This document shows positions 25,953 through 48,747 of a stretch of DNA of 64,000 bases, piece after piece; position 1 is the stretch's first letter, and each line of letters begins with the position of its first letter. The stretch covers positions 124,001-188,000 of the forward strand of contig JAEUTQ010000012.1 in the NCBI GenBank assembly GCA_016787445.1, given 5' to 3'. The notes under the pieces are model-generated. The model worked only from the letters and a program-made list of their open reading frames with translations, did not search any database and was not told the DNA's origin. The position numbers were made by a program, and so were the translations under genes. Origin of the DNA: Bacteroidia bacterium. Lineage in GTDB: Bacteria; Bacteroidota; Bacteroidia; B-17B0; Aurantibacillaceae.

Positions 25953-25987
25953 ATCGCATTTTTTGCCCTATAAATGACCTTTAAAAG

Positions 25988-26011
25988 GCGACCAAATTGG
26001 TCGCTTTTTTT
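25988..26011 (+). terminator. Rho-independent terminator after the MazG-like gene
   Basis: GCGACC (25988-25993) pairs with GGTCGC (25999-26004) around AAATT, followed by seven T residues. It separates the housekeeping genes from the surface-protein operon. Confidence 0.92.
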
Positions 26012-26054: not shown

Positions 26055-26086
26055 TTTTGTCTTTACGTGTTTATTTAGTATCTTTA
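26055..26086 (+). promoter_or_regulatory. Probable promoter of the fibre/T9SS operon
   Basis: TTTTG (26055-26059), a 19-base spacer and TATCTTTA (26079-26086), which differs from TAnnTTTG only in the last base. Start of transcription would be near 26092, ten bases before the first ATG. The next nine bases include an A-rich leader. Confidence 0.5.
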
Positions 26087-26101: not shown

Positions 26102-28867
26102 ATGAGATATTATATACTTATCACCTTTGTTTTCATTTCATTTTTAGTAAAGTCTCAGGCACCGCAATCTATCAATTATCAGGCCATTGCTCGCGATGCC
26201 GGCGGTAATATTGTTACAACGTCTATTGGAATAAAATTTCAAATATATCAAGGTAGTGTTGGTGGAACCTTAGTTTATGAAGAAACCAATACAGCAACGC
26301 CAAGTAGTGCCGGTATTTTTAATATCGGAATCGGATTAGGTGTTCCTGTTGTAGGTAATTTTTCAACTATTGCATGGGGGAGCGGTCCGTATTTTTTACA
26401 AGTTAACATCGATCCGGCTGGTGGAACATCGTATTCTACCGTTGGGTCCGCACAACTCGTTTCAGTTCCTTATGCCTTATTTGCCGAAAAAGCTGGTAAT
26501 GCTACAAATTATTCAGCCGGAAATGGTATCTCCATTTCATCCGGTAGTATTACGAACTCAGCGCCTGACCAAACTGTCACATTAAATGCCGCAGGTATAA
26601 CAACCGTTAGTGGTACATATCCTACTTATACAGTTGATGTGGCTGCTCCGGTTTTGAATTTCAATAATACATCCAATGTACTTACCTTAACTCAGGGCGG
26701 TACATCTACAACTGCAACTTTAACAGGATCAGGCTCAAATACAATAAGTATTACGGGTTCAGGCATCGCAAGCGTTACACCTACAGGACCATCAAATAAT
26801 TTTACGGTAAATGTTCAACCACCCGTTTTATTGGGACAAGGTTCTACATTTGTATCCGGAGCCTGGCCAAATTATACCATCACCTCTACAAATACAAGTT
26901 ATTCAGCCGGTACAGGAATTTCAATTGCTTCGGGTTCTATTATAAATACAGCACCAAATCAATCAGTGTCAATTACAGGTGCCGGTTCAACAACTGTTAG
27001 TGGAACGTATCCAAACTATACTATTGCAACTCCAATTCCTACAGTAACACCTGCACCAAATTTTATCGGACAAGGAACTGCAACCGTAACAACTGTTGCC
27101 AATAATCATACGGTAAATGTTGCTCCGGTTGGAATGAGTTTTACGCCGGCAACCGGAATTTTAAGTTATTCTCCTGCGCCAGGAATTAACTCTTTAAATA
27201 TTAGTCCAAATGTTACATTTACTAATAATGTGTTAACAGTTGGATCAAACTCAACAACTATTGGAGGAACAGGATTATGGAGCAGACTTACAGCTACTGC
27301 GACAACTTTATCAAACGTATCAGATTATGTTGGTATCGGAACAACATCACCAACAGAAATTCTACAAGTTCAAAGTGGTGCAAACGCGGATATTTCAATT
27401 GTTGCTACAGGTTCTAATCGTGCTACATTGAATTTAGGTTCGCTAGCAAATCATTTTTTAGGTGGAATTAGTTATCATGCCGGAACTAACAATATGAATT
27501 TTACCAGTAATGGAATTCAGAATCGTTTATTCTTTGACCAAAGCGGACGAACAGCTATTGGTTATACTACCACCGTTTCTGAATTAGATGTGAATGGTAG
27601 TTTACGTTTGGCCGGAAGTCGTTTGTTTTTAGGTGCCGTAGGAGGTATTAACTCAGGTTATACAGGGATTTATGAATCGGGAAGTGATTTAAGATTCGCC
27701 GTATTTAATACGGGCGCCCCAGCTAATCCACCTTTTGCTAGCGGAAACTCTCTAGACGCAGTTACTATCAAAAGCACGACCGGAAATGTGGGTATTGGAA
27801 CAACGTCACCACAACAAAAATTAGATTTGATAGGCTATTTAAGAGTTGCGGCAGGTAACTTATCTTCTGATGAAGGTTGGTTAATTGCTACGCCATCTCC
27901 AGGTATATCATTATTAAAAGCAGGAGGAAGAGGAACAACTGAAATGAGGATTGAACAGCCTAATGCTGCACCAATGGCATTTTATACTTCCGGAATCGAC
28001 CGAATGCGTATTAGTACGGGTGGAAGCGTTGGTATTGGAACTGGAACAAATACTCCAAATGGTAAATTAGAAATCACAGATGCATCCATGAACGGTTCTT
28101 CTTTATTAGTTACAAGCAATAACACCAGTGCGATTGATGCCGGTGCTGCTATTTTTAATTCAACCGGACAAAGAAGCATTAACAATAGTGCCGTAATTGT
28201 AAATAATCTTGTTACAAAATCAGGAGGTTCGGGAAGTACTAAAATAGGATTACAAGTTAATTCAACCGGATCATGGGCACCAACAACGGGTCAGCCTAAT
28301 GTGGGTATAAAGGTGGTTGCAACCGGAGCGGATTTAAATTATGCTTTACAATTGCAAGACGGATCTCAAGGCGCAGGTAAAGTATTAACCTCTGATGCGA
28401 CAGGTAATGCAACATGGAAAGCAAATCAAATTGCATTTTTTGCCGGAGCGCATCCAACAAGTGGAACAAATACGGCTTTGGCAAATAATACAACGCTTAC
28501 ACTTTTGCTTAACTCAGGTGCGTCTTCCATTGCGTTTAATCAAGGCGGCGCTTATGCAGCAGCTACCGGCCGTTTTACAGCCCCTGTCGGCGGAGTATAT
28601 CAGTTCAATGCAAATTTGGTGTTTGCAGGGGGGACTTCTCCGTTTTTTACAATTAAACTCAAGCATAGTTCCGGCGCGACCATTATTGAACACAACGGAT
28701 CTTTCAATAGTATTGCGGCTAACTGGTATTCCGGCAACCTGCATGCAACTGTTCATCTTAATGTTGGAGAATATGTTTTTATTGAAGTAAGCACAGGTAC
28801 TGGAGGTGGATGTAATATCTATCACGACAAGTCTTCTTTTAGCGGACATCTAGTTTATGCAGATTAG
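26102..28867 (+). CDS. Fibre-like surface protein 1 with C1q-like C-terminal domain
   Basis: 921 residues. Signal peptide at 1-18 (ending VKSQA). Residues about 20-135 are a domain shared with the next three genes, with INYQAIARDAGGNI, GGTSYSTV and VPYALFAEKAG. A low-complexity beta stalk follows, rich in Thr, Ser, Gly and Asn (NGISISSGSI, repeated TVSGTYPxYT). From about 405 there are repeats of VGIGTTSP-x-KL type, as found in tail-fibre-like proteins. The last 140 residues resemble a C1q/TNF jelly roll (GRFTAPVGGVYQFNA, ending SFSGHLVYAD). I see no T9SS sorting tail. By fold analogy it is probably a trimeric surface fibre whose tip binds a partner. First gene of a tightly packed operon. Confidence 0.8.
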   Translation: MRYYILITFVFISFLVKSQAPQSINYQAIARDAGGNIVTTSIGIKFQIYQGSVGGTLVYEETNTATPSSAGIFNIGIGLGVPVVGNFSTIAWGSGPYFLQVNIDPAGGTSYSTVGSAQLVSVPYALFAEKAGNATNYSAGNGISISSGSITNSAPDQTVTLNAAGITTVSGTYPTYTVDVAAPVLNFNNTSNVLTLTQGGTSTTATLTGSGSNTISITGSGIASVTPTGPSNNFTVNVQPPVLLGQGSTFVSGAWPNYTITSTNTSYSAGTGISIASGSIINTAPNQSVSITGAGSTTVSGTYPNYTIATPIPTVTPAPNFIGQGTATVTTVANNHTVNVAPVGMSFTPATGILSYSPAPGINSLNISPNVTFTNNVLTVGSNSTTIGGTGLWSRLTATATTLSNVSDYVGIGTTSPTEILQVQSGANADISIVATGSNRATLNLGSLANHFLGGISYHAGTNNMNFTSNGIQNRLFFDQSGRTAIGYTTTVSELDVNGSLRLAGSRLFLGAVGGINSGYTGIYESGSDLRFAVFNTGAPANPPFASGNSLDAVTIKSTTGNVGIGTTSPQQKLDLIGYLRVAAGNLSSDEGWLIATPSPGISLLKAGGRGTTEMRIEQPNAAPMAFYTSGIDRMRISTGGSVGIGTGTNTPNGKLEITDASMNGSSLLVTSNNTSAIDAGAAIFNSTGQRSINNSAVIVNNLVTKSGGSGSTKIGLQVNSTGSWAPTTGQPNVGIKVVATGADLNYALQLQDGSQGAGKVLTSDATGNATWKANQIAFFAGAHPTSGTNTALANNTTLTLLLNSGASSIAFNQGGAYAAATGRFTAPVGGVYQFNANLVFAGGTSPFFTIKLKHSSGATIIEHNGSFNSIAANWYSGNLHATVHLNVGEYVFIEVSTGTGGGCNIYHDKSSFSGHLVYAD

Positions 28868-28868
28868 T

Positions 28869-30728
28869 ATGATGAAATTTAAATTATCCATATTATTTTT
28901 ATTATTTGTGACTTTGTCATTTGCACAAACTCCACAAGTCATAAATTATCAAGCCATCGCGCGTGATGCCGGGGGAAATATTGTCACCAATTCAATTGGG
29001 ATTAAATTCCGAATCCTTCAAGGAAGCACCAGTGGTACTTTGGTGTACGAAGAAATACATACATCAACTCCGTCATCAGCCGGAATATTTAATGTAGGTA
29101 TTGGGGCAGGAACGGTTATTAGCGGAAATTTTTCTGCTATTAATTGGCAAAACTCACCTTATTACTTGGAAGTAAATATCGACCCAGCCGGCGGCACAAG
29201 TTATTCAACAATCGGAACGACTCAACTGGTTTCCGTTCCTTATGCTTTATATGCTGAAAAAGCAGGGAATGCTACTTCTTATTCAGCCGGAAATGGTATT
29301 TCAATTTCTTCCGGAAGTATTACTAATGCTGCTCCCGATCAAACAGTCACACTTGCGCCTGGAACGAATGTGAATGTGAATGGTTCTTATCCAAATTTCA
29401 CAGTGAATTCAACGCCAACTTTATCCATTGCAGGAAACAGTTTAAGTATTAGCGGCGGTAATGGTGTATTGATTCCGAGCAGTGGTACATTCGTTGCAAC
29501 TCCCAATACCAGCATAACAAGTACCGGTAATGCAACCGTATCTACAATAGGTACAAATACATTTAATATAGCTGTTGCACCGCAAACATTGAGCTTATCT
29601 GCCGGTGTTTTGAGTATTTCAGGAGGAAACGCAGTTACCTTACCTTCTGCACCTAACACAACAATAACCGGCGGAGGTCTGGCAACCGTTACTCCAACAA
29701 CCGGAACAAACTTTAACGTAACAGTTCCAGCTCAAACATTATCTCTAGGCGGAAACATTTTAAGTATATCAGGCGGAAATTCCATTACTTTACCTACGCC
29801 ACCGGCGCAAACCTTAACAGGAACTGGGATTGCAGTAGTTACACCAAGTGTTGGAAATAACTTGAACGTAAACGTTATTGCTCCTTCATTTGCAGGAACA
29901 AATGGTGTTACTGTTTCCGGTTCATATCCCACTTATTCATTAGGAATAAGTTCAACAGGTACAAGTACCGCATGGAATACGAACGGAAATGCTTCAACAA
30001 ATGGGACAATAAATTTTATTGGGACAACTGATGCGCAACCTTTGACTTTTAAAACTAATAATGGCACACGTATGTTTATTTCTCCAACAGGCGCAGTAGG
30101 TATTGGAAATACTATACCATCTGCTCCTCTTGAAGTTACAGGTAAAACTATTACAGATAGTATTCAAATTAGTGGCTCGGGTACTCCATCAACAGGTGCA
30201 GTGCTCGTATCTCGTGATAATATTGGAAACGCCAAGTGGTCGGCCGGTATTAGTTTTAGAGGTGAGTTTGCGCCAGCAACACCGATTACCATTTCAACAG
30301 TAGTTCAATCCAATATCGGTAATACAGCAGGTGGATATTCAAGCGGTACAATTTTTAATAATGCACCTACAGGAGGAATTTCTTTCTTAACAACCGGTAT
30401 GCGATTTACCGTGCCTGAAACAGGTGTCTATTTTTTAGAGGCTTCATTAATGGTGGCAATTAACTCATCTGCCACAGGTAATAATTATGTTGCCCTTGAA
30501 ATTTATAATTCAACAACCGCAACCATCTTATCACGAACTATGCAATCAAATCCTGATAATGCAAGCGCAATGAATACTGTTTTGAAAACCGGTACTGCAT
30601 ATGCACTAACTAAAAACGATGTTATTATTTTACGTGTAATGGGATCAACTGCAACTGCAGGTACAATTTCCAATGCGTATCCGCAAACAAATAAAATGGA
30701 TTATTTCACCGGTTATTTATTAAGATAG
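28869..30728 (+). CDS. Fibre-like surface protein 2 with C1q-like C-terminal domain
   Basis: 619 residues from the ATG at 28869, one base after the previous stop. The next codon is also ATG, and an in-frame upstream ATG at 28857 would overlap the previous gene and spoil the signal peptide. Signal peptide ends TLSFAQ. The shared N-terminal domain follows (INYQAIARDAGGNI, VPYALYAEKAG), then a stalk with five or so repeats of the form LSISGGNxVTLP. A VGIGNTIPSAPLEV element comes next, then a C-terminal C1q-like domain (MRFTVPETGVYFLEASL, ending DYFTGYLLR). No T9SS tail. Its head differs in sequence from that of fibre protein 1, so receptor specificity may differ. Confidence 0.78.
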   Translation: MMKFKLSILFLLFVTLSFAQTPQVINYQAIARDAGGNIVTNSIGIKFRILQGSTSGTLVYEEIHTSTPSSAGIFNVGIGAGTVISGNFSAINWQNSPYYLEVNIDPAGGTSYSTIGTTQLVSVPYALYAEKAGNATSYSAGNGISISSGSITNAAPDQTVTLAPGTNVNVNGSYPNFTVNSTPTLSIAGNSLSISGGNGVLIPSSGTFVATPNTSITSTGNATVSTIGTNTFNIAVAPQTLSLSAGVLSISGGNAVTLPSAPNTTITGGGLATVTPTTGTNFNVTVPAQTLSLGGNILSISGGNSITLPTPPAQTLTGTGIAVVTPSVGNNLNVNVIAPSFAGTNGVTVSGSYPTYSLGISSTGTSTAWNTNGNASTNGTINFIGTTDAQPLTFKTNNGTRMFISPTGAVGIGNTIPSAPLEVTGKTITDSIQISGSGTPSTGAVLVSRDNIGNAKWSAGISFRGEFAPATPITISTVVQSNIGNTAGGYSSGTIFNNAPTGGISFLTTGMRFTVPETGVYFLEASLMVAINSSATGNNYVALEIYNSTTATILSRTMQSNPDNASAMNTVLKTGTAYALTKNDVIILRVMGSTATAGTISNAYPQTNKMDYFTGYLLR

Positions 30729-30729
30729 A

Positions 30730-33156
30730 ATGAAAAGAATATTACTGTTATTAATTGTTTTTTTATCGCTTGGTGTTTTTGGGCAAGCACCACAGGTGAT
30801 CAACTACCAGGCCATCGCACGCGATGCGGGTGGAAACATAGTAACCAATTCAATTGGGATTAAATTCCGAATTCTTCAGGGAAGCACAAGTGGAACCTTA
30901 GTTTATGAAGAAACTCATACAACTTCGCCATCAACTGCCGGCGTTTTCAATGTTGGAATTGGTGCCGGTTCAGTTGTAAGTGGATCCTTTTCCGGAATTC
31001 AATGGCAAAACGGTCCTTACTTTTTAGAAGTAAACATAGATCCTGCAGGTGGTACAAGTTATTCTACAGTAGGAACTACTCAGTTACTTTCTGTTCCTTA
31101 TGCTTTGTATGCAGAGAAGGCAGGTAACTTGAACTTGAGTATTGGAAATGGTTTATCACTCACATCCGGCACGCTTAGTAATTCGGCACCGAATCAAACA
31201 GTAAGTATTACTTCCGGAAGTAATATTGCAGTGACAGGTTCTTATCCTTCATATACAATTTCCAGTACCGGAACTGCATCTACTTCCGTTCCGAACACAA
31301 GCGTTACCGGAACAGGTATCGCAACAGTTACAGCAGCCGGTACGAATACATTTAATGTGGCTGTTCAAACGCCAAGTTTAGTTGGGGTAGGTTCAACAAC
31401 TGTTAATGGTTCATTTCCTTCATATACCATCAGTACTCCTGCTACCGGCGTTAGTGGTTGGTCGATTTTAGGAAATGCAGGTACTACAGATGCTACTAAT
31501 TTCCTGGGCACTACAGATAATATACCACTCAACCTGAGAATAAATAATATAAAAGCAGGACGAATTGATACGGTTGGTAGGACTCACCTAGGTTATAAGG
31601 CAGGACTATCGAATACGGATTTAGGTTCAACTGCTGTCGGATATCAGGCTTTAATGGCGAATACAAGCGGTACGGCAAGTGCTGCTTACGGATTTAATGC
31701 CTTAAGAAATAATACATCCGGATACGAAAATGCGGCATTTGGATATAACAGTTTATTGGCCAATACATCCGGAAACTATAATTCAGCCTTCGGTGCTTAC
31801 GCCTTGAATAACAATAATGCAGCAGATAATACAGCAGTTGGTAACTGGGCATTACGTATTAATACTGCGGGAAGTTCAAACACCTCTGTTGGATCGCTTG
31901 CCATGATGAATAGTTCTACCGGCTCAAATAATACAGCCGTTGGTTTTTCTGCATTATCAAATAATGGTATAGGAGCGTTTCAAAATGCTTTTGGTTCTAA
32001 CGCACTTAAGAATAATTCAGCTGGTTTTAATTTAGCGATTGGATCAGATGCTTTAATTAGTACAACCACAGGTACGGCAAATATTGGTATCGGTAATGGT
32101 ACGTTTTCTACAAATATCAATGGTATTAACAATACAGCTGTGGGTTTTGCGGCTGGGCAATTTAATAACGGTTCAGGTAATCTTTTTTTAGGTTACAAAG
32201 CAGGTCAGAATGAAACAGGTTCTAATAAATTTATCATTGCAAACACACCAACTACTAACTTAATTTATGGAGATTTTACAAGCGAGCGTGTTGGTATGGG
32301 AACTACAACACTTTCTTACAAATTACATGTTGTTGAAACAAATTCTAATGCTGCTATTGGAGCCATCAATAATTATAATGCTACTGCTGTTGGTGGAACG
32401 CATGGTTTATTTGCCTCTGCTAGTAATCCAAGTAATTTGTCGTCGGCTGTTTACGCAACTCATTCAGGTGGAGGTAATGGTATTTCAGGTATAAGTACAG
32501 CCACTACATATACCGGAACAGCCGGCGTTTATGGTTTAACATTGGGAACAGGAACAACTAACATCGGTATTCAAGCTGATGCTACGACCGGTAATTCTAT
32601 TGGCATCTTTGCGCATAGTTTTAATTCTCATACAGGTATTGCCTTCTTAGCAAGAAAGGACGCCAGTGCAGGAAGTGGTATAGTAGCTCGTATAGAGAAT
32701 CAAGTTGCTACCAATACAGCAGATGCTTTGTTTTCATCTACAAACGGACCAGGTGCAGCGGTGCATGCAGCTTCCGGGCCAGGTGTTACGTCGGCATTAG
32801 CTTTATTGCTTGAAGAAGGTCACGTAGCTTCTATTGGTACTGTACCAACAACTACTGTTATTACTTCTTTGGTTGGCGGAACAGCAACACTTCTTTCTAC
32901 ATCTACAGACGTTGCAGGACGATTAACCATAAGTTTTGGAACTGGTCCGTTTACAGCGGCAACCTATGCAGGAGTGGTTTTTAATAAACCGTATACTGTA
33001 GCCCCAATTGTAATATTAACTCCAACATCAGTTTCTGCGTCTCAAGCAAATTTTCATGTAACTTCTTCTACAACCGGATTTACCATCACATATAACACTG
33101 CACCTGGCGCAAGTACAGTTCACAGTTTTAACTATATAGTGATTGAAACAAAATAA
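30730..33156 (+). CDS. Fibre-like surface protein 3 with head-type repeats
   Basis: 808 residues, starting one base after the previous stop. Signal peptide ends GVFGQ, followed by the shared N-terminal domain. At about residues 290-500 there are roughly ten short repeats of the form NTAVGxxALxxNTSG, like YadA-head or tail-fibre beta-roll repeats. After a beta-rich stalk, the last 80 residues form a tip shared with the next gene (VVFNKPYTVAPIVILTP, GFTITY, FNYIVIE). There is no C1q domain, endosialidase chaperone or T9SS tail. The family resemblance suggests a trimeric fibre. A 29-base stretch near its start is identical to that in fibre gene 2. Confidence 0.78.
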   Translation: MKRILLLLIVFLSLGVFGQAPQVINYQAIARDAGGNIVTNSIGIKFRILQGSTSGTLVYEETHTTSPSTAGVFNVGIGAGSVVSGSFSGIQWQNGPYFLEVNIDPAGGTSYSTVGTTQLLSVPYALYAEKAGNLNLSIGNGLSLTSGTLSNSAPNQTVSITSGSNIAVTGSYPSYTISSTGTASTSVPNTSVTGTGIATVTAAGTNTFNVAVQTPSLVGVGSTTVNGSFPSYTISTPATGVSGWSILGNAGTTDATNFLGTTDNIPLNLRINNIKAGRIDTVGRTHLGYKAGLSNTDLGSTAVGYQALMANTSGTASAAYGFNALRNNTSGYENAAFGYNSLLANTSGNYNSAFGAYALNNNNAADNTAVGNWALRINTAGSSNTSVGSLAMMNSSTGSNNTAVGFSALSNNGIGAFQNAFGSNALKNNSAGFNLAIGSDALISTTTGTANIGIGNGTFSTNINGINNTAVGFAAGQFNNGSGNLFLGYKAGQNETGSNKFIIANTPTTNLIYGDFTSERVGMGTTTLSYKLHVVETNSNAAIGAINNYNATAVGGTHGLFASASNPSNLSSAVYATHSGGGNGISGISTATTYTGTAGVYGLTLGTGTTNIGIQADATTGNSIGIFAHSFNSHTGIAFLARKDASAGSGIVARIENQVATNTADALFSSTNGPGAAVHAASGPGVTSALALLLEEGHVASIGTVPTTTVITSLVGGTATLLSTSTDVAGRLTISFGTGPFTAATYAGVVFNKPYTVAPIVILTPTSVSASQANFHVTSSTTGFTITYNTAPGASTVHSFNYIVIETK

Positions 33157-33158
33157 CT

Positions 33159-35234
33159 ATGAGAAAATTTATATTATTAATATTATCAATGTTTAGCGTG
33201 GGATTGTTTTCCCAATCTCCTAACCAAATCAATTATCAGGCAATTGCTCGAGATGCAAGTGGCACTATCATTGCTTCTTCAAATATTGGTGTTAAGTTTA
33301 AAATTATTCAAGGTACCCCAACAGGTACGGTTTCTTACGAAGAAACTAATACCGTTACTTCGAGTTCTTCTGGTATATTTACGGTCGCCATTGGCGCAGG
33401 AACTCCGGTGAGTGGTTCTATGTCAACTGTGGATTGGGCGAACGGCCCTTATTACATTGAAGTAAGTATTGATCCTGCAGGAGGAACTTCTTATTCTGTT
33501 GTTGGCGTTTCGCAATTGTTATCAGTTCCATATGCTTTATATGCAGCAAAGGCCGGAGGAAGTTCGGCTATGCCAACCGGAACAACAACCGGTCAAACTA
33601 TGTATTGGAATCAATTAGGTAATAAATGGGAAGTTGACAACAATTTATTAAATAACGGTAATAAGGTAACTATTGGTGATCCGTTTATCACCAATAATAA
33701 ATTAAAAGTAGTAAGTTACAGTGGTGCAGATAGCGCCGCCATCTTAGCTTATAAACCAAACAGTAACGGCAATGCGGCAGCCGTTAGGGCTTTCGCGTCC
33801 GGAAACTCTGCTAATTCAGGTTCAATTACAATTAATCCTATTATGGGAGGGCATTTTGTCGCGTTTAACGGTAATGCTTCCGGTACTGCTATTGGGTTAG
33901 TTGGCCATGGAACTTCACCTTCCGGAGATGCTGTTGGCTTAACTGCTATTGGTTCTTCAAGTTCAACTGCCAATGGATTATCGGTGGGTTTATATGCTAC
34001 CGCTATTGGTACAAACACGTATAATTCCTATGCCGCTATTTTTGAGAAAGGAAAAGTAATAATTCGTGATTCGCTCCAGTATGATATTCCTGGTTCCGTT
34101 GGTAATGTTTTAGTAAGAGGCTTGGGAGGTAAGGCTTATTGGGGAACAGGCGGAGCAGGTCCGTGGGTACGTAATTTGATTTCAGGAAATCAGAATGTTC
34201 AGTTTAATACTAATTCTGATCTATTAAATATTGGTTTGCCTAGCGGTATTTCTGCTAATGAAAAAGTTCATATTCATAATACTAGTGGCGATGCTTATAT
34301 TAATTTATCGACGTCTAGTAATTTCGGACGAGTAGGTTTAGTATTCGGAGAGAGTACAAATTGGAGTCATGCCTTTATGAGTTTCGATAACTCAAACAAT
34401 AATTTGTCATATCGTGTAGGCGGAAAATTAGTAATGCATCATGAAGGAAACGCAGGCTCATTACATTTAGGAAAAGTACCAACATCTGCATCTTCATTAT
34501 CAAAATTAGTTGTTTACGATTCTGTTTTAACTGCGGGTTCGCGTCCGATTTTGAAACTAGTTAATTTATCAGGTTCAGGTACCGGTCCTGCCGGAATGTT
34601 TTTAGGAGAAGGAACGGGGAGTGGTGTTGGATTAGGATATATAAAACTCGGTGCACAAGAATATTTCCGCATTAGTGATCCTACACTAGTATCCAGTCAC
34701 TATTTTACATTTAAGAAAACAGGCGAATTCTATCCGGGTAGCGACGGTGTTGCAACAGGTTTAGGGTTTATTAAAGGTGGATCGGGCATAACGAATGATT
34801 TAATAGTAAGCGGACCATCACAAGCCAGTATTGTTTTTGACGGACATCTAAAAGCTGCCGGTCCAACGCCAACAGTTAGTGTATCAACATCCGGAACTAA
34901 CTTAAGTGCATTTCCTTTTACAGTTACATTTACAGGAGGAAATAATAATGATATAAAAGGAAGTTTACGTGCCATTAATACTTTCTCTTTTGTGTTTCAA
35001 ATGTACAGTACTTCAAGCGATGAGCTGACTATGACTGTTTTATTTAATCGTCCTTATGCAAATCCTCCTACAGTAGTGGTGAGTCCAAAAAACGACATAA
35101 TGGGTCTTACCTATTTTACAACCATCACGGCTGGTAACACGGGTTTTTTGATTCATGTAAGAAATCAATCTAATTCAGGTGTATCGGTTAATACAGCTAC
35201 ACCATTTGAGTTTAATTATATAGTAATTGAATAA
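33159..35234 (+). CDS. Fibre-like surface protein 4
   Basis: 691 residues, starting 2 bases after the previous stop. Signal peptide ends VGLFSQ, then the shared N-terminal domain in a more diverged form (INYQAIARDASGTI, VPYALYAAKAG). The stalk lacks the NGISISSGSI element of proteins 1 and 2 and instead carries GQTMYWNQLGNKWEV and KVTIGDP. The C-terminus resembles that of protein 3 (VLFNRPYANPPTVVVSP, GFLIHV, final FNYIVIE). This gives a mosaic pattern: one base domain, changing stalks and two kinds of tip across four neighbouring genes. No T9SS sorting domain is seen. Function is inferred only as surface attachment or recognition. Confidence 0.76.
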   Translation: MRKFILLILSMFSVGLFSQSPNQINYQAIARDASGTIIASSNIGVKFKIIQGTPTGTVSYEETNTVTSSSSGIFTVAIGAGTPVSGSMSTVDWANGPYYIEVSIDPAGGTSYSVVGVSQLLSVPYALYAAKAGGSSAMPTGTTTGQTMYWNQLGNKWEVDNNLLNNGNKVTIGDPFITNNKLKVVSYSGADSAAILAYKPNSNGNAAAVRAFASGNSANSGSITINPIMGGHFVAFNGNASGTAIGLVGHGTSPSGDAVGLTAIGSSSSTANGLSVGLYATAIGTNTYNSYAAIFEKGKVIIRDSLQYDIPGSVGNVLVRGLGGKAYWGTGGAGPWVRNLISGNQNVQFNTNSDLLNIGLPSGISANEKVHIHNTSGDAYINLSTSSNFGRVGLVFGESTNWSHAFMSFDNSNNNLSYRVGGKLVMHHEGNAGSLHLGKVPTSASSLSKLVVYDSVLTAGSRPILKLVNLSGSGTGPAGMFLGEGTGSGVGLGYIKLGAQEYFRISDPTLVSSHYFTFKKTGEFYPGSDGVATGLGFIKGGSGITNDLIVSGPSQASIVFDGHLKAAGPTPTVSVSTSGTNLSAFPFTVTFTGGNNNDIKGSLRAINTFSFVFQMYSTSSDELTMTVLFNRPYANPPTVVVSPKNDIMGLTYFTTITAGNTGFLIHVRNQSNSGVSVNTATPFEFNYIVIE

Positions 35235-35238
35235 AGTA

Positions 35239-36027
35239 ATGATAATGAAGAAAAAAATATTTTCAATAATGCTGGTTTGTTTAAGCTGGAGTTTTATTTC
35301 TCTTGCGCAACCAACTATTAGTAATAAAGTCATCAATTCAGCAGGCGGAGAAGGTACTGCCGGAACTACTACCATTTATTATAACATTGGAGAAACTGTT
35401 ATTAATACAATTAACAGTTCTTCCAACACAATAACTCAAGGGTTTTTACAGCCTGATGTATTAGGTAATTTCGGATTAAGTGTATCTACATTAATTAATC
35501 ATATTAGTTGTGTTGGTAAAACAGATGGCGCAATTGTGTTAACACCTACCATTTCTGGAATTAGCTCAGCCATTACACCGAGTTATCAATATTTCTGGAC
35601 TCCAACTTCGCTTTGTCCTGCCAATGACTGTCAAAGTCTTAATAACTTAAATGCAGGGGTATATTCGGTGACCGTTATAGCAACTTTTGGAACTAAATCA
35701 GATACAGTTGAAGTTAATAACATTACAATTAACGATAGTACAGAACCTTGTTTGTTGGAAATATTTAACGGGGTTACTCCTAATGGCGATAATAAAAATG
35801 ACTTTTTCTTTATTGGGAATATTGATCAATATCCTAAAAATAACGTTAAGATTTTCACGAGATGGGGTCAACTCATTTCTAATTTGGATGGATATGATAA
35901 TGTAACCAAACGATGGGACGGTAATATAAATGGTCAGGTGGTAGCATCAGGTACTTATTTTTATGTAATTGATTTAGGTAATGGTTCCAAGCCTATAAAA
36001 GGATGGATTGAATTATTAAATAAATAA
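35239..36027 (+). CDS. Small secreted protein with SprB-like repeat and T9SS type B sorting domain
   Basis: 262 residues from ATG 35239 (a second ATG at 35245 is equally possible; a TTG at 35227 would overlap the previous gene). Signal peptide ends ISLAQ. Residues about 20-85 include GGEGTAGTTTIYYNIGE and TQGFLQP. Residues about 85-160 resemble one SprB repeat (CVGKTDGAIVLTP, LNAGVYSVTV). The C-terminal 90 residues are the gliding-motility-associated type B sorting domain (NGVTPNGDNKNDFFFI, RWGQLI, ASGTYFYVIDL, KGWIELL). Type B proteins depend on a PorP/SprF partner, and one is encoded two genes downstream. Probably a surface adhesin or adaptor. Confidence 0.88.
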   Translation: MIMKKKIFSIMLVCLSWSFISLAQPTISNKVINSAGGEGTAGTTTIYYNIGETVINTINSSSNTITQGFLQPDVLGNFGLSVSTLINHISCVGKTDGAIVLTPTISGISSAITPSYQYFWTPTSLCPANDCQSLNNLNAGVYSVTVIATFGTKSDTVEVNNITINDSTEPCLLEIFNGVTPNGDNKNDFFFIGNIDQYPKNNVKIFTRWGQLISNLDGYDNVTKRWDGNINGQVVASGTYFYVIDLGNGSKPIKGWIELLNK

Positions 36028-36030
36028 TTA

Positions 36031-38913
36031 ATGAAATATATATATAGTATAATATTTGTTTTAATTGCGACAATCTCATTGAATGCTCAAAGCGTATTCA
36101 ATTCTAGTGGATTTTGTTTTGGCACAGCAGAATATCCCTCTTTAACAGGTGGTTTTTGGTCAAAATCAATTGTTGAAGATTTTGATGGTGATACAAAGAA
36201 AGATTTTATGTCGTTGCATTTTACAATCAATGATATAGAAGTTTACCGTTTTACAGGCAGCACTTCTCCATCATTTACTTTGGATTATACCAATCCCATT
36301 CCAACACCGAATTATTATAATGGAGTGAATTTTGCTGTTGGGGATTTTGACGCTGATGGCAAAAAAGATTTTGCAGTAATTGATACCAGTTTTTCAATTT
36401 CTATTTACAAAAACATTAGTACGTTAGGTGCAATTAGTTTTACTAACGTAACCAATTTTATTTGTAAGGTTCCTGCAGGGCCACAGTACGTTTCACCTGC
36501 AGTACACTTGGAAGCCGGAGATTTTGACGGTAATGGAAATGTTGACCTGGTTATATTTGCTTACGATCAAAACGCAGCGATTGGCACCATAGGTTATAAA
36601 ATTAAGTTTGTGCCCAATAATGGCGGCTTAGTTTTCAATACAACTAATCCTGTTTATACCGGATTCAATTCAAAGAGCATTAAGGATATTGGCGGTCAAT
36701 TCGAGTATGCCATGGAGGATTTAAATGGAGATTCCAAAAAGGATTTTGTAGTAGCCTTTCATTCATTTTCTGGCAATGATACATTATCCATTTTAAGAAA
36801 CAACAGTACCCCGGGTTCTTTTGCACTTACGGAAATAAAAATGCCGGTGACCGGTAATCAAGGTAACTACATTAAACGTGTTTATATAAAGGATATGAAC
36901 GCTGACGCAAAACCGGATATTATGAGTTTGTTTGAAAATGCAGCCGGACAACAATCTATCTGTTTTCAAAATGCAACATCAACACCTTATGTATATAGCG
37001 TTGTACCTACAAATTACAATTTACCGGTAGGAGGTACTTGTGAGTATTTTCAGATAGATGATTTAAATAATGATGGTAAAAATGAGTTAATTGGCCGATC
37101 CAGCTCAGGAGGAATTAATTTATATATTGGTAAAACTACTTCACACCCTTATTTTGATACAGTAACTTACACTCTGCCTTATTGGGTTGGTCCGCAGTTT
37201 ACACACATTTATGACTTTAATGGGAACGGCTATAAGGATTTTATATTCAATCCGGGTAATGTAGATGGAGGTGATTCCCAGCTTCAATATGTTACCAACC
37301 ACTCTTACTCACTTTCTATCGCACCTTCAAATCCAAGTTTCTGCAATCCGGATTCTGTGAAATTAACTACAAATACAAACTATACGAATGTGATTAATTA
37401 TAGCTGGTCAAACGGCGATACAACTTCATATTCATGGATTAACACTACCGGATCTGTTTGGGTAACCTATTCAATTAATTTTTCTTATAGTTCCGTTTGT
37501 TATATAAAATCAGATACAATTACAGTAAATGGATATAATCCTACACCTTTAACAACAACAGCTGTTACCGGCTTAGTTTGCTCTAATGCGCCTGTAACTC
37601 TGAATGCAAATGGTGCTATAACTTATACTTGGCAGCCCGGTAATTATAATGGTGCTTCTCCGGTAGTAAATCCGCCTGCAAATTCATATACTGTTTATGG
37701 CACGGATGCTAACGGTTGTAATACAAGTACAACCATGTCGCTAAATGTTATAAGTGCACCAACAGTGGCGATAAGTTCTAATACTCCAACAATTTGCCAG
37801 GGAACTATTGCTGTTCTTACCGCATCCGGAGCGGCAACCTATACGTTACAACCCGGTTCACAAACAGGATCTTCTTTTTCCGTAAATCCTTTAATTGCGA
37901 CTACCTATACGATTAATGGTGAATCAACGAATGGCTGTAAAGACGATGAAGTAATCACTATTAATGTTAATCCAGCTCCAACTATCTCAGCCAATCTTAC
38001 CGGTACAACTATTTGTAGCGGACAAAGCATAGGTTTAAACGCTTCGGGGGGAGTTAATTATTTATGGTTGCCGGGTAATTTAATTGGATCAACGCATACT
38101 GTTTCGCCATCCTCTACAATAACCTATACAGTATTCGGAATTGATGCCATTGGATGTGGTAATTTCGATTTGGTTAATGTAACGGTCGTTAACACTCCTA
38201 CATTATCGGTTACAAGTTCCAGCAATACAGTTTGTAAAGATGATATGGTAACGCTAAACGCAAGCGGTGCCGGTACTTATACGTGGGAGCCGGGTGGCTA
38301 TACAGGTGCTTCGGTAGGAATTTACGTCAGTGCTAATACGGTGTTTACTGTCACCGGATCATTAGTAGCAGGATGTGATGCAGTTGATTTTATCACTGTA
38401 AACGTTTGGCCTAGTAACTTTAATGCTGTAGCTTCCTCAACTACTATTTGTAACGGACAATCGGTAACCTTATCTGCAACAGGCGCCATCACTTATACGT
38501 GGAGTAATGGAAGTAATGATTCCACTATTGTTGTTAGTCCGGTTACTGCGGAAACCTTTATGATTGATGCCATCGATTCGTACGGTTGCAAATTTGTTCA
38601 AGCGATTAGTGTGGAAGTAGATCCAATTTGTGCAATTACAGTGTTTAATGGTTTAACACCAAACGGTGATGGAAAAAATGATGTTTTCTTTATTAAGAAC
38701 ATTGATCAGTATCCCGGTAATATGGTTCGCATATACAATCGATGGGGTCAAGTGATTTTTGAAACTGAAAACTATGATAATGTAAATAGAAAATGGGATG
38801 GTAGTATGTACAATAATGGAGTGAATGCTCCGGCAGGAACATATTATTATTTAATCGATTTAAAAAATGGTAAAGAACTATTAAAGGGATATATAGAACT
38901 AACATTGAAATAA
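36031..38913 (+). CDS. Secreted FG-GAP/Ig-like repeat protein with T9SS type B sorting domain
   Basis: 960 residues, 3 bases after the previous stop. Signal peptide ends SLNAQ. Residues about 35-415 hold FG-GAP/VCBS-type repeats with calcium-binding-like loops (VGDFDADGKKDFAV, AGDFDGNGNVDLVI, DLNNDGKNELIG, DFNGNGYKDFIF), expected to form a propeller. Residues about 430-860 contain five or six Ig-like modules with paired Cys and the LxASGAxTYTW pattern. The last 90 residues are a type B sorting domain nearly identical in plan to that of the gene before (NGLTPNGDGKNDVFFI, NRWGQVIFE, GTYYYLIDL). A surface adhesin or lectin-like protein secreted through T9SS. Confidence 0.9.
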   Translation: MKYIYSIIFVLIATISLNAQSVFNSSGFCFGTAEYPSLTGGFWSKSIVEDFDGDTKKDFMSLHFTINDIEVYRFTGSTSPSFTLDYTNPIPTPNYYNGVNFAVGDFDADGKKDFAVIDTSFSISIYKNISTLGAISFTNVTNFICKVPAGPQYVSPAVHLEAGDFDGNGNVDLVIFAYDQNAAIGTIGYKIKFVPNNGGLVFNTTNPVYTGFNSKSIKDIGGQFEYAMEDLNGDSKKDFVVAFHSFSGNDTLSILRNNSTPGSFALTEIKMPVTGNQGNYIKRVYIKDMNADAKPDIMSLFENAAGQQSICFQNATSTPYVYSVVPTNYNLPVGGTCEYFQIDDLNNDGKNELIGRSSSGGINLYIGKTTSHPYFDTVTYTLPYWVGPQFTHIYDFNGNGYKDFIFNPGNVDGGDSQLQYVTNHSYSLSIAPSNPSFCNPDSVKLTTNTNYTNVINYSWSNGDTTSYSWINTTGSVWVTYSINFSYSSVCYIKSDTITVNGYNPTPLTTTAVTGLVCSNAPVTLNANGAITYTWQPGNYNGASPVVNPPANSYTVYGTDANGCNTSTTMSLNVISAPTVAISSNTPTICQGTIAVLTASGAATYTLQPGSQTGSSFSVNPLIATTYTINGESTNGCKDDEVITINVNPAPTISANLTGTTICSGQSIGLNASGGVNYLWLPGNLIGSTHTVSPSSTITYTVFGIDAIGCGNFDLVNVTVVNTPTLSVTSSSNTVCKDDMVTLNASGAGTYTWEPGGYTGASVGIYVSANTVFTVTGSLVAGCDAVDFITVNVWPSNFNAVASSTTICNGQSVTLSATGAITYTWSNGSNDSTIVVSPVTAETFMIDAIDSYGCKFVQAISVEVDPICAITVFNGLTPNGDGKNDVFFIKNIDQYPGNMVRIYNRWGQVIFETENYDNVNRKWDGSMYNNGVNAPAGTYYYLIDLKNGKELLKGYIELTLK

Positions 38914-38922
38914 GAAGTGAAT

Positions 38923-39867
38923 ATGAAGAAGAACTTAATTTTAATTTTGATTATTACTACTGTAAGCACCTTTGCTCAGCAAGACCCACAATACAGTTTG
39001 TATCAGTTTAATCAATTGGTAATAAATCCGGGTTACACGGGAGCGCGCGATGCTATTGCAATTGTTGCAGATGTAAGAAAGCAATGGGCCGGAATTGATG
39101 GCGCCCCAACCACGGCAGCTTTCAGTGTGCATAGTCCGATTATGAATAATAAGCTAGGTGTAGGCTTAAATATTGTAAGCGATAAAATCGGAGCGAAAAC
39201 AGTTAGCGCATTTTATGGTAACATTTCTTATATCTTAAAGATTGGAAATACTACAAAGTTAGCTTTTGGAGCACGCGCAGGCTATGCTATGTATAAATTC
39301 AATTTTAATGAAGTAAAGTATAAGGATGCCGATGAAACAGCGTATACAGATTTAAATAATGCCAATAAGGGTTCATTGGATGTTGATGCCGGATTATATC
39401 TGCGTACAAATAAATTCTTTGTTGGCTTAAGTGCCACTCACTTAAATAACGGTCAGATTTATAAAGGAAATTTTCAGGCTCTAGATACCAATGGAGTTAC
39501 CAATGATTATTCGGTGAGTTATGTGTTGCGCCCTCATATGTTCTTAACAATGGGATATTCTTTTGTTATCAATGAAAACTTTTTGTTCGCTCCTTCACTG
39601 ATGGTGAAAACCGTTAGAGGAAGAACAAGTACAGATTTAAACTTGAATTTCTTTGTAGCAAAGCGTGTTTGGTTAGGAGGATTTATTCGTCAGGGTTATG
39701 GTTTTGGAGCATTATTTCAGGTGTATGCCACCAAGCAATTACGTATAGGTTATGCGTTTGACGCAGGCCTAGGAAAACAAAGAGTTTTAGGTAGTGCACA
39801 TGAAATCATGCTTGGTTTTGATTTTGGAAAGTATAAATCAAAAATGGTGTCACCACGTACTTTATAA
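38923..39867 (+). CDS. PorP/SprF-family T9SS outer-membrane protein
   Basis: 314 residues from ATG 38923; a GTG six bases earlier is less likely. Signal peptide ends VSTFAQ, then QDPQYSLYQFNQLVINPGYTGAR, the family hallmark. VRKQWAGIDGAPTT, HSPIMNNKLGVGLNIVSD and many alternating beta strands of an outer-membrane barrel follow. PorP/SprF proteins help export or anchor type B T9SS cargo; SprF serves the SprB adhesin of Flavobacterium. It directly follows two type B cargo genes, so it is probably dedicated to them. The same operon continues to the OmpA-like gene after 41 bases. Confidence 0.93.
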   Translation: MKKNLILILIITTVSTFAQQDPQYSLYQFNQLVINPGYTGARDAIAIVADVRKQWAGIDGAPTTAAFSVHSPIMNNKLGVGLNIVSDKIGAKTVSAFYGNISYILKIGNTTKLAFGARAGYAMYKFNFNEVKYKDADETAYTDLNNANKGSLDVDAGLYLRTNKFFVGLSATHLNNGQIYKGNFQALDTNGVTNDYSVSYVLRPHMFLTMGYSFVINENFLFAPSLMVKTVRGRTSTDLNLNFFVAKRVWLGGFIRQGYGFGALFQVYATKQLRIGYAFDAGLGKQRVLGSAHEIMLGFDFGKYKSKMVSPRTL

Positions 39868-39908: not shown

Positions 39909-42590
39909 ATGAGTAGGAAGTTCTTAGTAATAGTTACACTGGTATTAGCAACGGGAGTTATAATGGCGCAAAAGGGTAAAGCGGATGCGTATTATTCCAA
40001 AGGATTGTATGCGAAGGCAATTCCGTTGTATGTAAAAGCATCACAAAAGAGCGGACCTGATAAGCAAGACGCATTAATTAAATTGGGTGATTGCTACCGT
40101 CTATTAAATGAATTTAAAAAGGCAGAAAGCAGTTATAAACAAGCTGTGGATCTTAAAGGTAATTTACCAGCAGACGTACATTATAATTATGGGTATGTTC
40201 TGAAAACAAACAACAATTATAATGAAGCCTTGAATCAGTTTTATGCTTATCTCGAAGAAAAACCAAATGATTCTAAAGCAAAAAATGCGATTCGTTCATG
40301 TCAGCAAATTAAATATTGGCAAACAAAGGCAATAGAATACGAAATAAAAAACGTAGAAGGCATCAATACACCACGTTCAGAGTTTAGTCCTGCAATACTC
40401 GATAATAAAATAGTATTCGTTGGCGAAAAGCAAGCTGATTTTATTGAATACCCGATTGACGAAGCAAACGGACAACCTTATATGAATGTGTTTATATCTA
40501 AAGTGGATGTAGATAAATCAAAAGGCCAAAAATCATTCAGTAGTAAAATTAATTCAAACTACCACGACGGGCCGGTTAATTTTAGTGCAGATGGTAAAAC
40601 ACTTTTGTTTACACGTGTAGAATATATCACAAAAAAGAAAGACAAGGATTTTGTGAACCGCGCGAAAATTTATTTTGCAAGCGGAAAGGGTACCAGTTGG
40701 TCAAAAATTAAACCGTTTCAATACAATAGCGATGCTTATTCTGTAGCGCATCCTTGTTTAAGCACCGACGGCAATTATTTGTTTTTTGCTTCTGATATGC
40801 CGGGCGGACAAGGCGGAAAAGATTTGTGGTATTGTAAAAAGAATGGTGATGGCTGGGATAAGCCGGTAAACTTAGGTTTTGATATTAATACAAGTGGCGA
40901 TGAAATGTTTCCTTGTATGCGTAAAGATGGAACCTTGTTCTTTTCGTCAAATGGCCTAGCCGGATTTGGAGGATTGGATATTTTCTCAGCGAAGGAAAAA
41001 GAAGGTAAATGGATTGTAAGCCGTAACGAAAGTATGTTGTTGAATAGTCAGGCTGATGATTTTTCGATTTGTTTCTTGAATGATTCAACCGGATACTTTA
41101 CTTCTAACCGTGAAGGTGGTAAGGGTAAAGATGATATTTATTGGTTTAAATACACCAATAAATACATAAGTGTTAACGGAACAATTTTGTTAACTGAAAA
41201 CATCAACGACCCCGCCAAAAATGTGAAAGTGTATTTGTTAGGTCAGGATGAGAAAAAGATGGATTCAATTCGCACCGATCAAAAAGGTTATTTCGAATTT
41301 AAAAATCTTGATTCTGATAAAAAATATTTAGCAGCGGTTGATTCGGATGATCCGATGTTTAAGGATAAGGCGCGTTTTTATATGGCAAACTCAAATGGAG
41401 TAATATCTCGTGTAACAAATAACGTTAGTGGGAATAAATACGCATTTAAGAATTTACCAATGGATCCTAATGGATTACCGGAGTTATATGCAGATGGCGA
41501 TCTTACCTTAGCGGGTAACTTATTGTTTGGTGAAAATCCAAGTAAGCCAATTAAGAATGCAAAAATCAGCATTACAAATAAATCGGGCGATGTTATCGAG
41601 ACGACAACCACAAATGAATTCGGTGCCTTTGCTTTTAGAAGCCTTCCTTCCGACCAGAATTATATCATTAGTTTAGAAGAGTCGGATTTGGAATTCCCTT
41701 CTAATACTAAAATTACTTTAACCAATAAAAGCGGAAAGGAAATTAAAAGCTTCTTTACCGGTCAGGGTAAGTTTAAGTTTAATGTGTTAGCAAGTGAAAA
41801 AGTGATGTTAACAGATCTGGATGTAAGCGATGCTGATTTAATCATGCAGCTTTATGGTTATGTTTATGATCAGGATAAAAAACCGTTTGGTAATGCAAAA
41901 CTCAAATTATATAATACAAATAATGAACTCAACCAGACTATTACAACGGATGGAAACGGTAAGTTCGAGTTTAAAAACCTGAAGGCAAACTTAGATTATT
42001 TATTCGATGTGGATGAATCTGATTCTCGTTTAGCAAATATCAAGAAGTTATACATCGCAGATAACAAAGGAAGAATTTATAAAGAGCTCATCAAAACTTT
42101 AAAAGGAAAGTTTGAGTTTAAAGTATTGTCGGTTGATAAAGTGGCTATGGGAGAATATACAGTTGATGATCCATGGTTACAGGTTTTAGAAATGAAGAAC
42201 AAAGCCAAACAGGATAGTATTAATTCAATTACCATTGTAGAAAACATTCTATATGCTTTCGGTGACCATAAATACGATGCAGCCGGACAAAAAGTATTGG
42301 ATAAGGTAATTGCTGTAATGTTATCAAATCCGAACTTAATGGTTGAATTGAGTTCTCATACCGATTCTCGCAGTAGTGATCAATTTAATTTGGCATTATC
42401 TCAAAAACGCGCTAAAACAGCAGTTGATTATATGATTGCAAAGGGCGTTGATAAAAAAAGATTAAAAGCGGTGGGTTACGGCGAAACAAAACTGCTCAAT
42501 AATTGTTCTAATAATGTAGAGTGTTCGGATGAAGAACACGCAAAGAACAGACGAACCGAGTTTAAAATTGTTGAAGCGCCAAAATTATAG
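39909..42590 (+). CDS. PorE-like TPR/propeller/OmpA protein of the T9SS
   Basis: 893 residues. Signal peptide ends GVIMAQ. Domains in order: TPR helices at about 22-130 (AYYSKGLYAKAIPLY), PD40/WD40-like propeller blades at about 145-420 (GPVNFSADGKTLLFTR, SNREGGKGKDDIY), three carboxypeptidase-regulatory-like beta domains at about 420-740, and a C-terminal OmpA domain. That domain has FGDHKYDAAGQKVLD, SSHTDSRSSDQFNLALS and NRRTEF, the peptidoglycan-binding pattern. This order is that of PorE, which ties the T9SS to peptidoglycan. With the PorP/SprF protein just upstream it forms the familiar PorP-PorE pair. A terminator hairpin lies about 50 bases downstream. Confidence 0.9.
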   Translation: MSRKFLVIVTLVLATGVIMAQKGKADAYYSKGLYAKAIPLYVKASQKSGPDKQDALIKLGDCYRLLNEFKKAESSYKQAVDLKGNLPADVHYNYGYVLKTNNNYNEALNQFYAYLEEKPNDSKAKNAIRSCQQIKYWQTKAIEYEIKNVEGINTPRSEFSPAILDNKIVFVGEKQADFIEYPIDEANGQPYMNVFISKVDVDKSKGQKSFSSKINSNYHDGPVNFSADGKTLLFTRVEYITKKKDKDFVNRAKIYFASGKGTSWSKIKPFQYNSDAYSVAHPCLSTDGNYLFFASDMPGGQGGKDLWYCKKNGDGWDKPVNLGFDINTSGDEMFPCMRKDGTLFFSSNGLAGFGGLDIFSAKEKEGKWIVSRNESMLLNSQADDFSICFLNDSTGYFTSNREGGKGKDDIYWFKYTNKYISVNGTILLTENINDPAKNVKVYLLGQDEKKMDSIRTDQKGYFEFKNLDSDKKYLAAVDSDDPMFKDKARFYMANSNGVISRVTNNVSGNKYAFKNLPMDPNGLPELYADGDLTLAGNLLFGENPSKPIKNAKISITNKSGDVIETTTTNEFGAFAFRSLPSDQNYIISLEESDLEFPSNTKITLTNKSGKEIKSFFTGQGKFKFNVLASEKVMLTDLDVSDADLIMQLYGYVYDQDKKPFGNAKLKLYNTNNELNQTITTDGNGKFEFKNLKANLDYLFDVDESDSRLANIKKLYIADNKGRIYKELIKTLKGKFEFKVLSVDKVAMGEYTVDDPWLQVLEMKNKAKQDSINSITIVENILYAFGDHKYDAAGQKVLDKVIAVMLSNPNLMVELSSHTDSRSSDQFNLALSQKRAKTAVDYMIAKGVDKKRLKAVGYGETKLLNNCSNNVECSDEEHAKNRRTEFKIVEAPKL

Positions 42591-42640
42591 CTTAACGTCT
42601 TTTAACATATTAAAAAGACTTTGGCAAAATAATTGGTATG

Positions 42641-42668
42641 AAAAGCACAGATTCTTTCTGTGTTTTTT
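42641..42668 (+). terminator. Rho-independent terminator or attenuator after the PorE-like gene
   Basis: CACAGA (42646-42651) pairs with TCTGTG (42657-42662) around TTCTT, followed by six T residues; the AAAA at 42641-42644 can extend the stem. It closes the fibre/T9SS operon, or attenuates read-through into the gene starting at 42686. It lies inside the extra codons that a start at 42638 would add, arguing against that start. Confidence 0.8.
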
Positions 42669-42685
42669 ATTTAAAACTTAGTACT

Positions 42686-47922: not shown

Positions 47923-48747
47923 TTGAAAACAGTTATTGATAGTGGTTCTACCGGGCGTTTAAGTCTAAGCGAAATTATTCGTTTTAAAGGGTTGCTTTGG
48001 AACCTTTCTATGCGCGATGTTTTGGTTAGATACAAACAAACCTTAATAGGTGTTTTATGGGCTGTTGTGCGACCTGCTATTAATATCGCCATATTTGTTT
48101 TCTTTTCCATGTTCATTGAAGGTGGTTCTGACTTGCAAGAAAGGATTGTAAATGTTGGTGCAGGAATTATTATTTGGGGATTAATATCTACCTCCATTAC
48201 TGATGTAAGCAATTCGTTGCTTAATAATTCTAATATCCTTACAAAAGTATATTTCCCGAAATTGATAATTCCAATTTCTACGTTGGCGGTATGTTTAATT
48301 GATTTCCTTATTTCTTTTTTTATTCTTTTGATTTGTAAAATCGCAATTAATGGTTTTCCGGGACCGGAATTCTTTTTGTTCCCGGTATTTGTTCTTTATG
48401 CTATCTTGTTTTCATTTGCTGTTGGTTTATTTTTCGCAACATTAAATGTAAAATATCGCGATATTAAATTCACTCTACCTTTTTTGTTGCAAATTGGTTT
48501 TTATGTTTGCCCTGTCTTTTTAAGCTCTTCATTTTATCTTGAAAAATTACCGTCCTCACTCGCTCCGATTTTCATGTCGAATCCACTTGTTACTGTTATT
48601 GAAGGATTCAAATATTGTTTTTTAGGACAATCTTTTAGTGTTGACATGGTTTATGTTTTATCCGGCCTTTGCTTTACCCTATTAATATTGATATTTAGCT
48701 TGAGATACTTTATGAAATTTGAAAAAACTTTTGCCGATTTTATTTAA
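47923..48747 (+). CDS. wzm: Polysaccharide ABC exporter, permease subunit (Wzm type)
   Basis: 274 residues from a TTG start. Six membrane segments, preceded by a cytoplasmic helix with LLWNLSMRDVLVRYKQTLIGVLWAVVRP, shown here only as MRDVLVRYKQT and the GVLWAVVRP turn typical of ABC-2 O-antigen permeases. FLLQIGFYVCPVF and SNPLVTVIEGFKYCFLG near the C-terminus are equally typical. Together with the next gene it should move a finished lipid-linked glycan across the inner membrane. Its stop overlaps the start of the ATPase gene by one base (TAATG form), indicating coupled translation. Confidence 0.92.
   Translation: MKTVIDSGSTGRLSLSEIIRFKGLLWNLSMRDVLVRYKQTLIGVLWAVVRPAINIAIFVFFSMFIEGGSDLQERIVNVGAGIIIWGLISTSITDVSNSLLNNSNILTKVYFPKLIIPISTLAVCLIDFLISFFILLICKIAINGFPGPEFFLFPVFVLYAILFSFAVGLFFATLNVKYRDIKFTLPFLLQIGFYVCPVFLSSSFYLEKLPSSLAPIFMSNPLVTVIEGFKYCFLGQSFSVDMVYVLSGLCFTLLILIFSLRYFMKFEKTFADFI

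Follow-up and report, generated by a model that had tools for sequence, protein, structure and literature searches.

The window, a stretch of 64,000 nucleotides from the genome of a member of the Bacteroidia, carries four fibre genes at 26102-35234, all on the plus strand and separated by 1-2 bases in the list of open reading frames. Their products of 921, 619, 808 and 691 amino acids had been noticed in a preliminary description made from the letters alone, and positions, lengths and strand were found to be as described there. Fibre 1 (26102..28867) is composed of a signal peptide, a base domain, a stalk and a C1q tip. Fibre 2 (28869..30728), for which an in-frame ATG upstream at 28857 gives an alternative length of 623 aa, ends in a weakly scoring C1q-like tip at about 30393-30722. 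Fibre 3 (30730..33156) consists of a base, a head-repeat stalk with NTAVG motifs and an H-lectin-like tip, and fibre 4 (33159..35234), an orthologue of which is retained in the sister species, ends at about 34860-35231 in a tip of the same family as that of fibre 3. A signal peptide and a beta-sandwich base are common to all four proteins, whereas stalks and tips differ.

The N-terminal domains, which had been recognized as a common feature, are 59-71% identical to that of protein 1 and were detected in this genome in the four fibre genes alone (E 4e-72 to 5e-44), a similarity well outside what chance would give. Concerning the stalks, the wording of the preliminary description was generous, as VGIGTTSP occurs in two exact copies, both in protein 1, and otherwise in degenerate copies in proteins 1-3. 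The NTAVG-type repeats do exist but are confined to protein 3, where they belong to the head-repeat stalk, a part of which is phage-like (about 31582-32319, plus strand).

Between the upstream OmpH-like/PRA-PH genes and the fibre operon lies a terminator-like stem-loop with a T run (25983..26009, plus strand; 12-pair stem, T tail). Since such sites are no commoner in the region than in shuffled sequences, it is the position of this one that speaks for it. The Bacteroidota promoter consensus is TTTG/TAnnTTTG, and a putative promoter of this type, TTTG-N19-TAtcTTTa, can be read at 26056..26086 on the plus strand, 15 nt 5' of the first start codon.

In the other direction the operon runs on, as had been noted, into T9SS cargo and PorP/SprF genes, all on the plus strand. 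The first encodes a small type-B-CTD protein (35227..36027; CHU_C E 3.3e-23) of about 261-266 aa, which adjoins fibres in many genera. It is followed by a 960-aa FG-GAP/Ig protein, again with a type-B CTD (36031..38913; PF13517, PF19081, PF13585), which is found in some fibre operons and is absent from others, by a PorP/SprF-like outer-membrane protein (38917..39867; PF11751 E 5.2e-65) and by a PorE-like protein (39909..42590) with TPR, beta-propeller (PD40), carboxypeptidase-regulatory and OmpA domains, an order that agrees with the description of PorE in PMC9143113.

Two further genes of this region may be mentioned. In the 1128-aa protein encoded at 42638-46024, a motif resembling ICHIPPGN-PQTIEI-ESAWPAHQAHGD--G-C is repeated many times; the spacing of its Cys and His residues hints at metal binding or disulphides. 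Relatives of this gene come after PorE in the sister loci L055 and L058. An ABC transporter with a Wzt C-terminal domain, of the O-antigen export type, is encoded at 48747-49994, downstream of the fibre operon and separated from it by a few genes.

To characterize the base, an alignment of 52 N-domain sequences from many Bacteroidota genomes was used. One NCBIfam model, NF053851 (Bdello_MAT_N), fits this domain: all 52 sequences match it at E<=1e-3 (best 3e-15). As a shared signal peptide could inflate these scores, the search was repeated with the mature domain alone, which gave E values of 2e-7 to 2e-12 (1.8e-7 for the base of fibre 1 at 26159..26500, plus strand), while the signal peptide alone had no matches to the model. 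The curated cut-off of 60 bits was not reached, neither in the window (best 48.7 bits) nor in any of 198 genomes of the phylum among the matches listed, and the main matching stretch spans about half of the model; the Bacteroidota domains are therefore placed as a sister branch outside that subfamily. On this sequence evidence the Bacteroidota base appears to be homologous to the base of the MAT fibres of Bdellovibrio, and it has the features of the MAT superfamily in the broad sense, namely a predicted beta-rich domain of ~130 aa after a signal peptide.

The base of fibre 4 was modelled with confidence as a beta-sandwich (pLDDT 91.4). Searches of the PDB with the base gave nothing convincing by sequence and no significant match by structure, where generic immunoglobulin-like sandwiches were all that was obtained (Foldseek E>=0.004, Z<=6.5); Caulton et al. 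(2024, PMC10769870) report the like for the MAT N-domain of Bdellovibrio. A kinship of the base to predicted viral proteins was also considered on account of four matches at E<=1e-3, but with TM values of about 0.4-0.5 these were judged to reflect merely a common fold. The base domain is present in 50 of 60 related genomes, the Bdellovibrio model itself is matched by 55 of 198 genomes across the phylum, and tandem arrays of 2-4 fibre genes recur among the N-domain loci. No paper describing a Bacteroidota counterpart of the MAT fibres was found in our literature searches, which took in the text of PMC10769870.

The C-terminal tips had been described as being of two kinds. The tip of fibre 1 (28526..28855, plus strand) matches the C1q family PF00386 at E 1.6e-11, its 44.9 bits lying above the cut-off of 23.7, and in a sequence search of the PDB it matches solved adiponectin and C1q-like structures (adiponectin E 6.8e-10). 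For tip 2 the score against PF00386 is 17.0 bits (E 0.0072), under the cut-off, and no PDB entry was matched by sequence, profile included. The claim that proteins 1 and 2 end in C1q/TNF-like domains is thus well founded for protein 1, whereas for protein 2 the label is plausible but short of proven because of the weak family score and the missing PDB match. In solved structures, ends of the C1q/TNF and S74 types form trimers.

Proteins 3 and 4 do carry another, common tip, as had been stated: the two are 33% identical and belong to one family of at least 24 sequences. Tip 3 (32800..33153, plus strand) reaches 24.1 bits against PF09458, for which the cut-off is 24 bits, when it is searched alone, compared with 21.1 bits for the whole of protein 3 and 15.2 bits for protein 4. 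Its model, built from the 24-sequence alignment, is confident (pLDDT 90.5). The structures ranked highest for this model were discoidin II, the tailspike ends of phages LKA1 and phi297, Helix agglutinins and the R1 pyocin fibre, with a best Foldseek E of 0.03 (Helix agglutinin) and a maximal VIA Z of 6.6 (discoidin II, 79 residues, 2.7 A), both below significance. By sequence, the tip-3 profile found nothing in the PDB, and a two-sequence profile ranked snail agglutinins first at E 0.17. The same set of structures is matched by the lectin foot of R-pyocins, which has been described as a discoidin-like lectin domain (PMC6363177). Tips 3 and 4 look like discoidin/H-type-lectin-like jellyrolls, a lead rather than a proof.

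A survey of 101 N-domain proteins, covering at most the last 250 residues of each, revealed 17 S74, 10 collagen, 6 Lcl_C, 3 C1q, 2 H_lectin and 2 FISUMP ends in addition to collar, K1-lyase and other domains. Among 21 Bdellovibrio MATs, S74 forms the end of 13, and tips of the TNF/C1q-like type are also known from Bdellovibrio (PMC10769870). In agreement with the preliminary description, a domain search detected a T9SS sorting domain (Por_Secre_tail or CHU_C) in none of the four fibres, nor in any of the 101 relatives.

The place of the array is fixed in the sister species, where it is flanked by the OmpH-like/PRA-PH pair on one side and by the CHU_C-PorP-PorE genes on the other; G007 and G002 each have four fibre genes and G006 has three. 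All four fibres are kept at 90-92% in the near species G007. The comparison of the locus among related strains, which had been suggested as a check, also revealed an exchange of tips. The first fibres of loci L057 and L058 are 48-88% identical per 50-residue window over residues 1-727, one insertion apart; past residue 727 identity is 18-44% over short gapped pieces, and the tips are unrelated. The first fibre of L058, which is fibre 1 of the sister species G006, carries instead a tip with 68% identity to that of fibre 2 in the window. Tip exchange between sister species is therefore visible, base and proximal stalk being common and the tip replaced, and exchanged tips are a mark of MAT fibres. 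In addition, two neighbouring paralogues in L058 (15087-18143 and 11772-15083) share 594 identical nucleotides (codons 19-216), a tract that spans the mature base and runs into the stalk; just beyond it identity falls to about 60%. The simplest reading is recombination or gene conversion through the common base; an assembly artefact is possible.

The genes behind the fibres form a recurrent unit. The order of fibre(s), small type-B-CTD protein (about 165-270 aa), sometimes a larger type-B protein, PorP and PorE is found beyond the genus (L014, L066, L073, L079, L082, L087-L094, L098, L100, L103 and others), and it is new that such fibres head a conserved operon with these three partners. The genome contains 15 PorP/SprF genes. 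Orthologues of the PorP in the window were delimited by score (>=197 bits, against <=180 bits for paralogues), and association was scored as a fibre base within 15 kb upstream of PorP on the same strand. This was the case for 25 of 37 orthologues but for just one of the 48 paralogues (Fisher p 1.8e-11, for loci that are not independent owing to shared ancestry), and the association extends over eleven genera, which belong to five families. That one paralogue with a fibre base just upstream (G029:C24:1595-4650) accompanies a fibre whose tip belongs to the family of fibres 3 and 4.

Twelve PorP orthologues are without an upstream fibre. Four of these lie near contig edges, one of them (L138) with a fibre tip. 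Seven others were inspected, L131 to L137, of which L135 is cut by the contig end. In L132-L134 a large type-B protein replaces the small one directly upstream of PorP and the fibre is absent, and L131 has the whole unit with the small protein and no fibre. Conversely, L099 has fibres but not the small type-B-CTD protein. In the remaining two, fibrous and partly collagen-like proteins lacking a recognized base are encoded upstream of the small type-B-CTD/PorP/PorE unit at L136:7094-12876 and L137:1-3174 (5' end cut), where they perhaps represent another base type on the same platform.

Taken together, these data make it very probable that the four proteins are recognition fibres of the MAT type, and likely that their tips bind glycans. 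The suggestion of interchangeable receptor-binding fibres is well supported by the base homology to Bdellovibrio MAT fibres, by lectin- and adhesin-type tips and by the tip exchange between sister species. The preliminary description had left the modes of secretion and anchoring open; the conserved synteny with PorP, PorE and the small type-B-CTD protein points to a specific surface complex on which the fibres might dock. In Porphyromonas, a type-B protein is joined with PorP and PorE in one complex, PorE being the member that binds peptidoglycan, and an adjacent PorE has been proposed to mark non-mobile, wall-anchored cargo (PMC9143113). This complex and the lack of C-tail cysteines in the PorP of the window lead us to propose docking on a static, wall-tied platform, to which we assign somewhat less than an even chance. 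The overall reading, trimeric MAT-type surface fibres with swapped tips that are tied to the type-B-CTD/PorP/PorE platform, is moderately probable.

In the mechanism that we envisage, the fibres would be exported by Sec and form long, probably trimeric structures whose common beta-sandwich base remains at the cell surface, with a rod-like stalk of variable length presenting the C-terminal tip, be it C1q, C1q-like or a discoidin/H-type-lectin-like jellyroll, which would most likely bind glycans on other cells or surfaces. The T9SS would deliver the small type-B-CTD protein to the surface, where PorP would hold it and PorE would tie PorP to the peptidoglycan; the fibre bases would dock on this platform, with the small protein as candidate surface receptor. 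Recombination between the tandem copies would homogenize the base and swap stalk and tip. This complete picture of a fibre turret, in which MAT-type fibres with swappable lectin tips dock on a type-B-CTD protein that the T9SS delivers, a dedicated PorP holds this protein, PorE ties it to peptidoglycan and gene conversion through the common base renews the set of tips, is put forward tentatively, as a possibility that falls below even chances.

With somewhat less than an even chance, the fibres are MAT-like but anchored or exported independently of the neighbouring genes, the gene order being no more than inherited synteny of surface genes. Any gene of the unit was found nearby in 34 of 90 N-domain loci, over half of the sampled loci thus being without one, and the exceptions L131 and L099 point the same way, as do the Bdellovibrio MATs, which are displayed on the surface (PMC10769870) in a phylum without a described T9SS. 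Against this stand the specificity of the association for one PorP orthologue group across so many genera and families, and the finding that the inspected orthologues with a large type-B protein directly upstream in place of the small one are fibreless whereas nearly all with the small one have fibres. Most N-domain loci outside this group have no such unit, so that docking on it cannot be the general rule, and since Bdellovibrio has MAT fibres while descriptions of the T9SS come from Bacteroidetes and allied phyla, the anchor there must differ.

Alternatively, the small type-B-CTD protein might act as a secretion carrier with which the fibres are co-exported through the T9SS pore. The fibres have neither a T9SS CTD nor an autotransporter barrel among their domain hits and yet must cross the outer membrane, and their spacing to the carrier gene is operon-like; however, no precedent for such T9SS cargo was found in the literature searched, and the Bdellovibrio MATs become surface-exposed by some other route, which makes this explanation unlikely. 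More improbable still are SprB-like gliding adhesins moved along the T9SS track, a notion suggested by the PorP/SprF-family protein in the operon because SprF carries SprB (PMC12635249, PMC9143113). SprF requires a C-tail Cys-Xaa-Cys for gliding (PMC12635249), and cysteine is absent from the last 40 residues of the PorP in the window and of three orthologues, so that this protein was rejected as a gliding SprF; the neighbouring PorE would signal non-mobile cargo, and the fibres lack an SprB-type CTD.

The resemblance to phages noted earlier applies to the stalk of protein 3, which is 31-40% identical to proteins of tail-fibre or adhesion type from 67 phage records, whose hosts range from cyanobacteria to Bacillus, and also resembles PHROG structural families; apart from this it is limited to tips 3 and 4, weakly and by fold. 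An origin of the genes from the tail-fibre region of a decayed prophage or tailocin is nevertheless scarcely credible, as the fibres carry N-terminal signal peptides, a search of 50,697 phage records matched neither the base nor the C1q tip, the identified flanking genes are non-phage at a place fixed in the sister species, and phage structural genes are absent from the flanks of all related loci inspected.

Compared with known systems, the fibres come closest to the MAT fibres of Bdellovibrio bacteriovorus (PMC10769870), with which they share the signal peptide followed by a base of ~130 aa with sequence homology and a predicted beta-rich fold, mosaic stalks, exchanged C-terminal tips including TNF/C1q-like and, in the wider family, S74 ends, and several copies per genome. 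They differ in a base that scores under the NF053851 cut-off, in the tandem operon tied to T9SS type-B-CTD/PorP/PorE genes and in the discoidin/H-lectin-like tip; moreover, Bdellovibrio is a predator, and no evidence points to predation by the present organism. The downstream genes match the Porphyromonas complex in domain make-up, but in the window fibre genes stand at the head of the unit, a link that was not found in the accessible text of PMC9143113. With the foot of the R-pyocin tail fibre (PMC6363177) tip 3 has a statistically weak ranking of structures in common, but it belongs to a signal-peptide protein outside any phage or tailocin. The NTAVG-like head repeats of protein 3 recall YadA-type trimeric autotransporter adhesins; unlike these, the fibres have no C-terminal barrel anchor among their Pfam hits and their common domain is N-terminal.

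The fibres, then, are of a kind already known but found here in new surroundings: they form a branch of the MAT type in Bacteroidota, are tied in conserved fashion to a T9SS anchoring complex, and extend the principle of the Bdellovibrio prey-recognition fibres to a large phylum. The natural tip swaps between sister species could open their specificity to study. Which surface element is bound by the MAT-type base was left open by Caulton et al. (PMC10769870); the small type-B-CTD protein, PorP and PorE are a concrete candidate anchor, and the fibre-turret reading, if true, would name the kind of element concerned.
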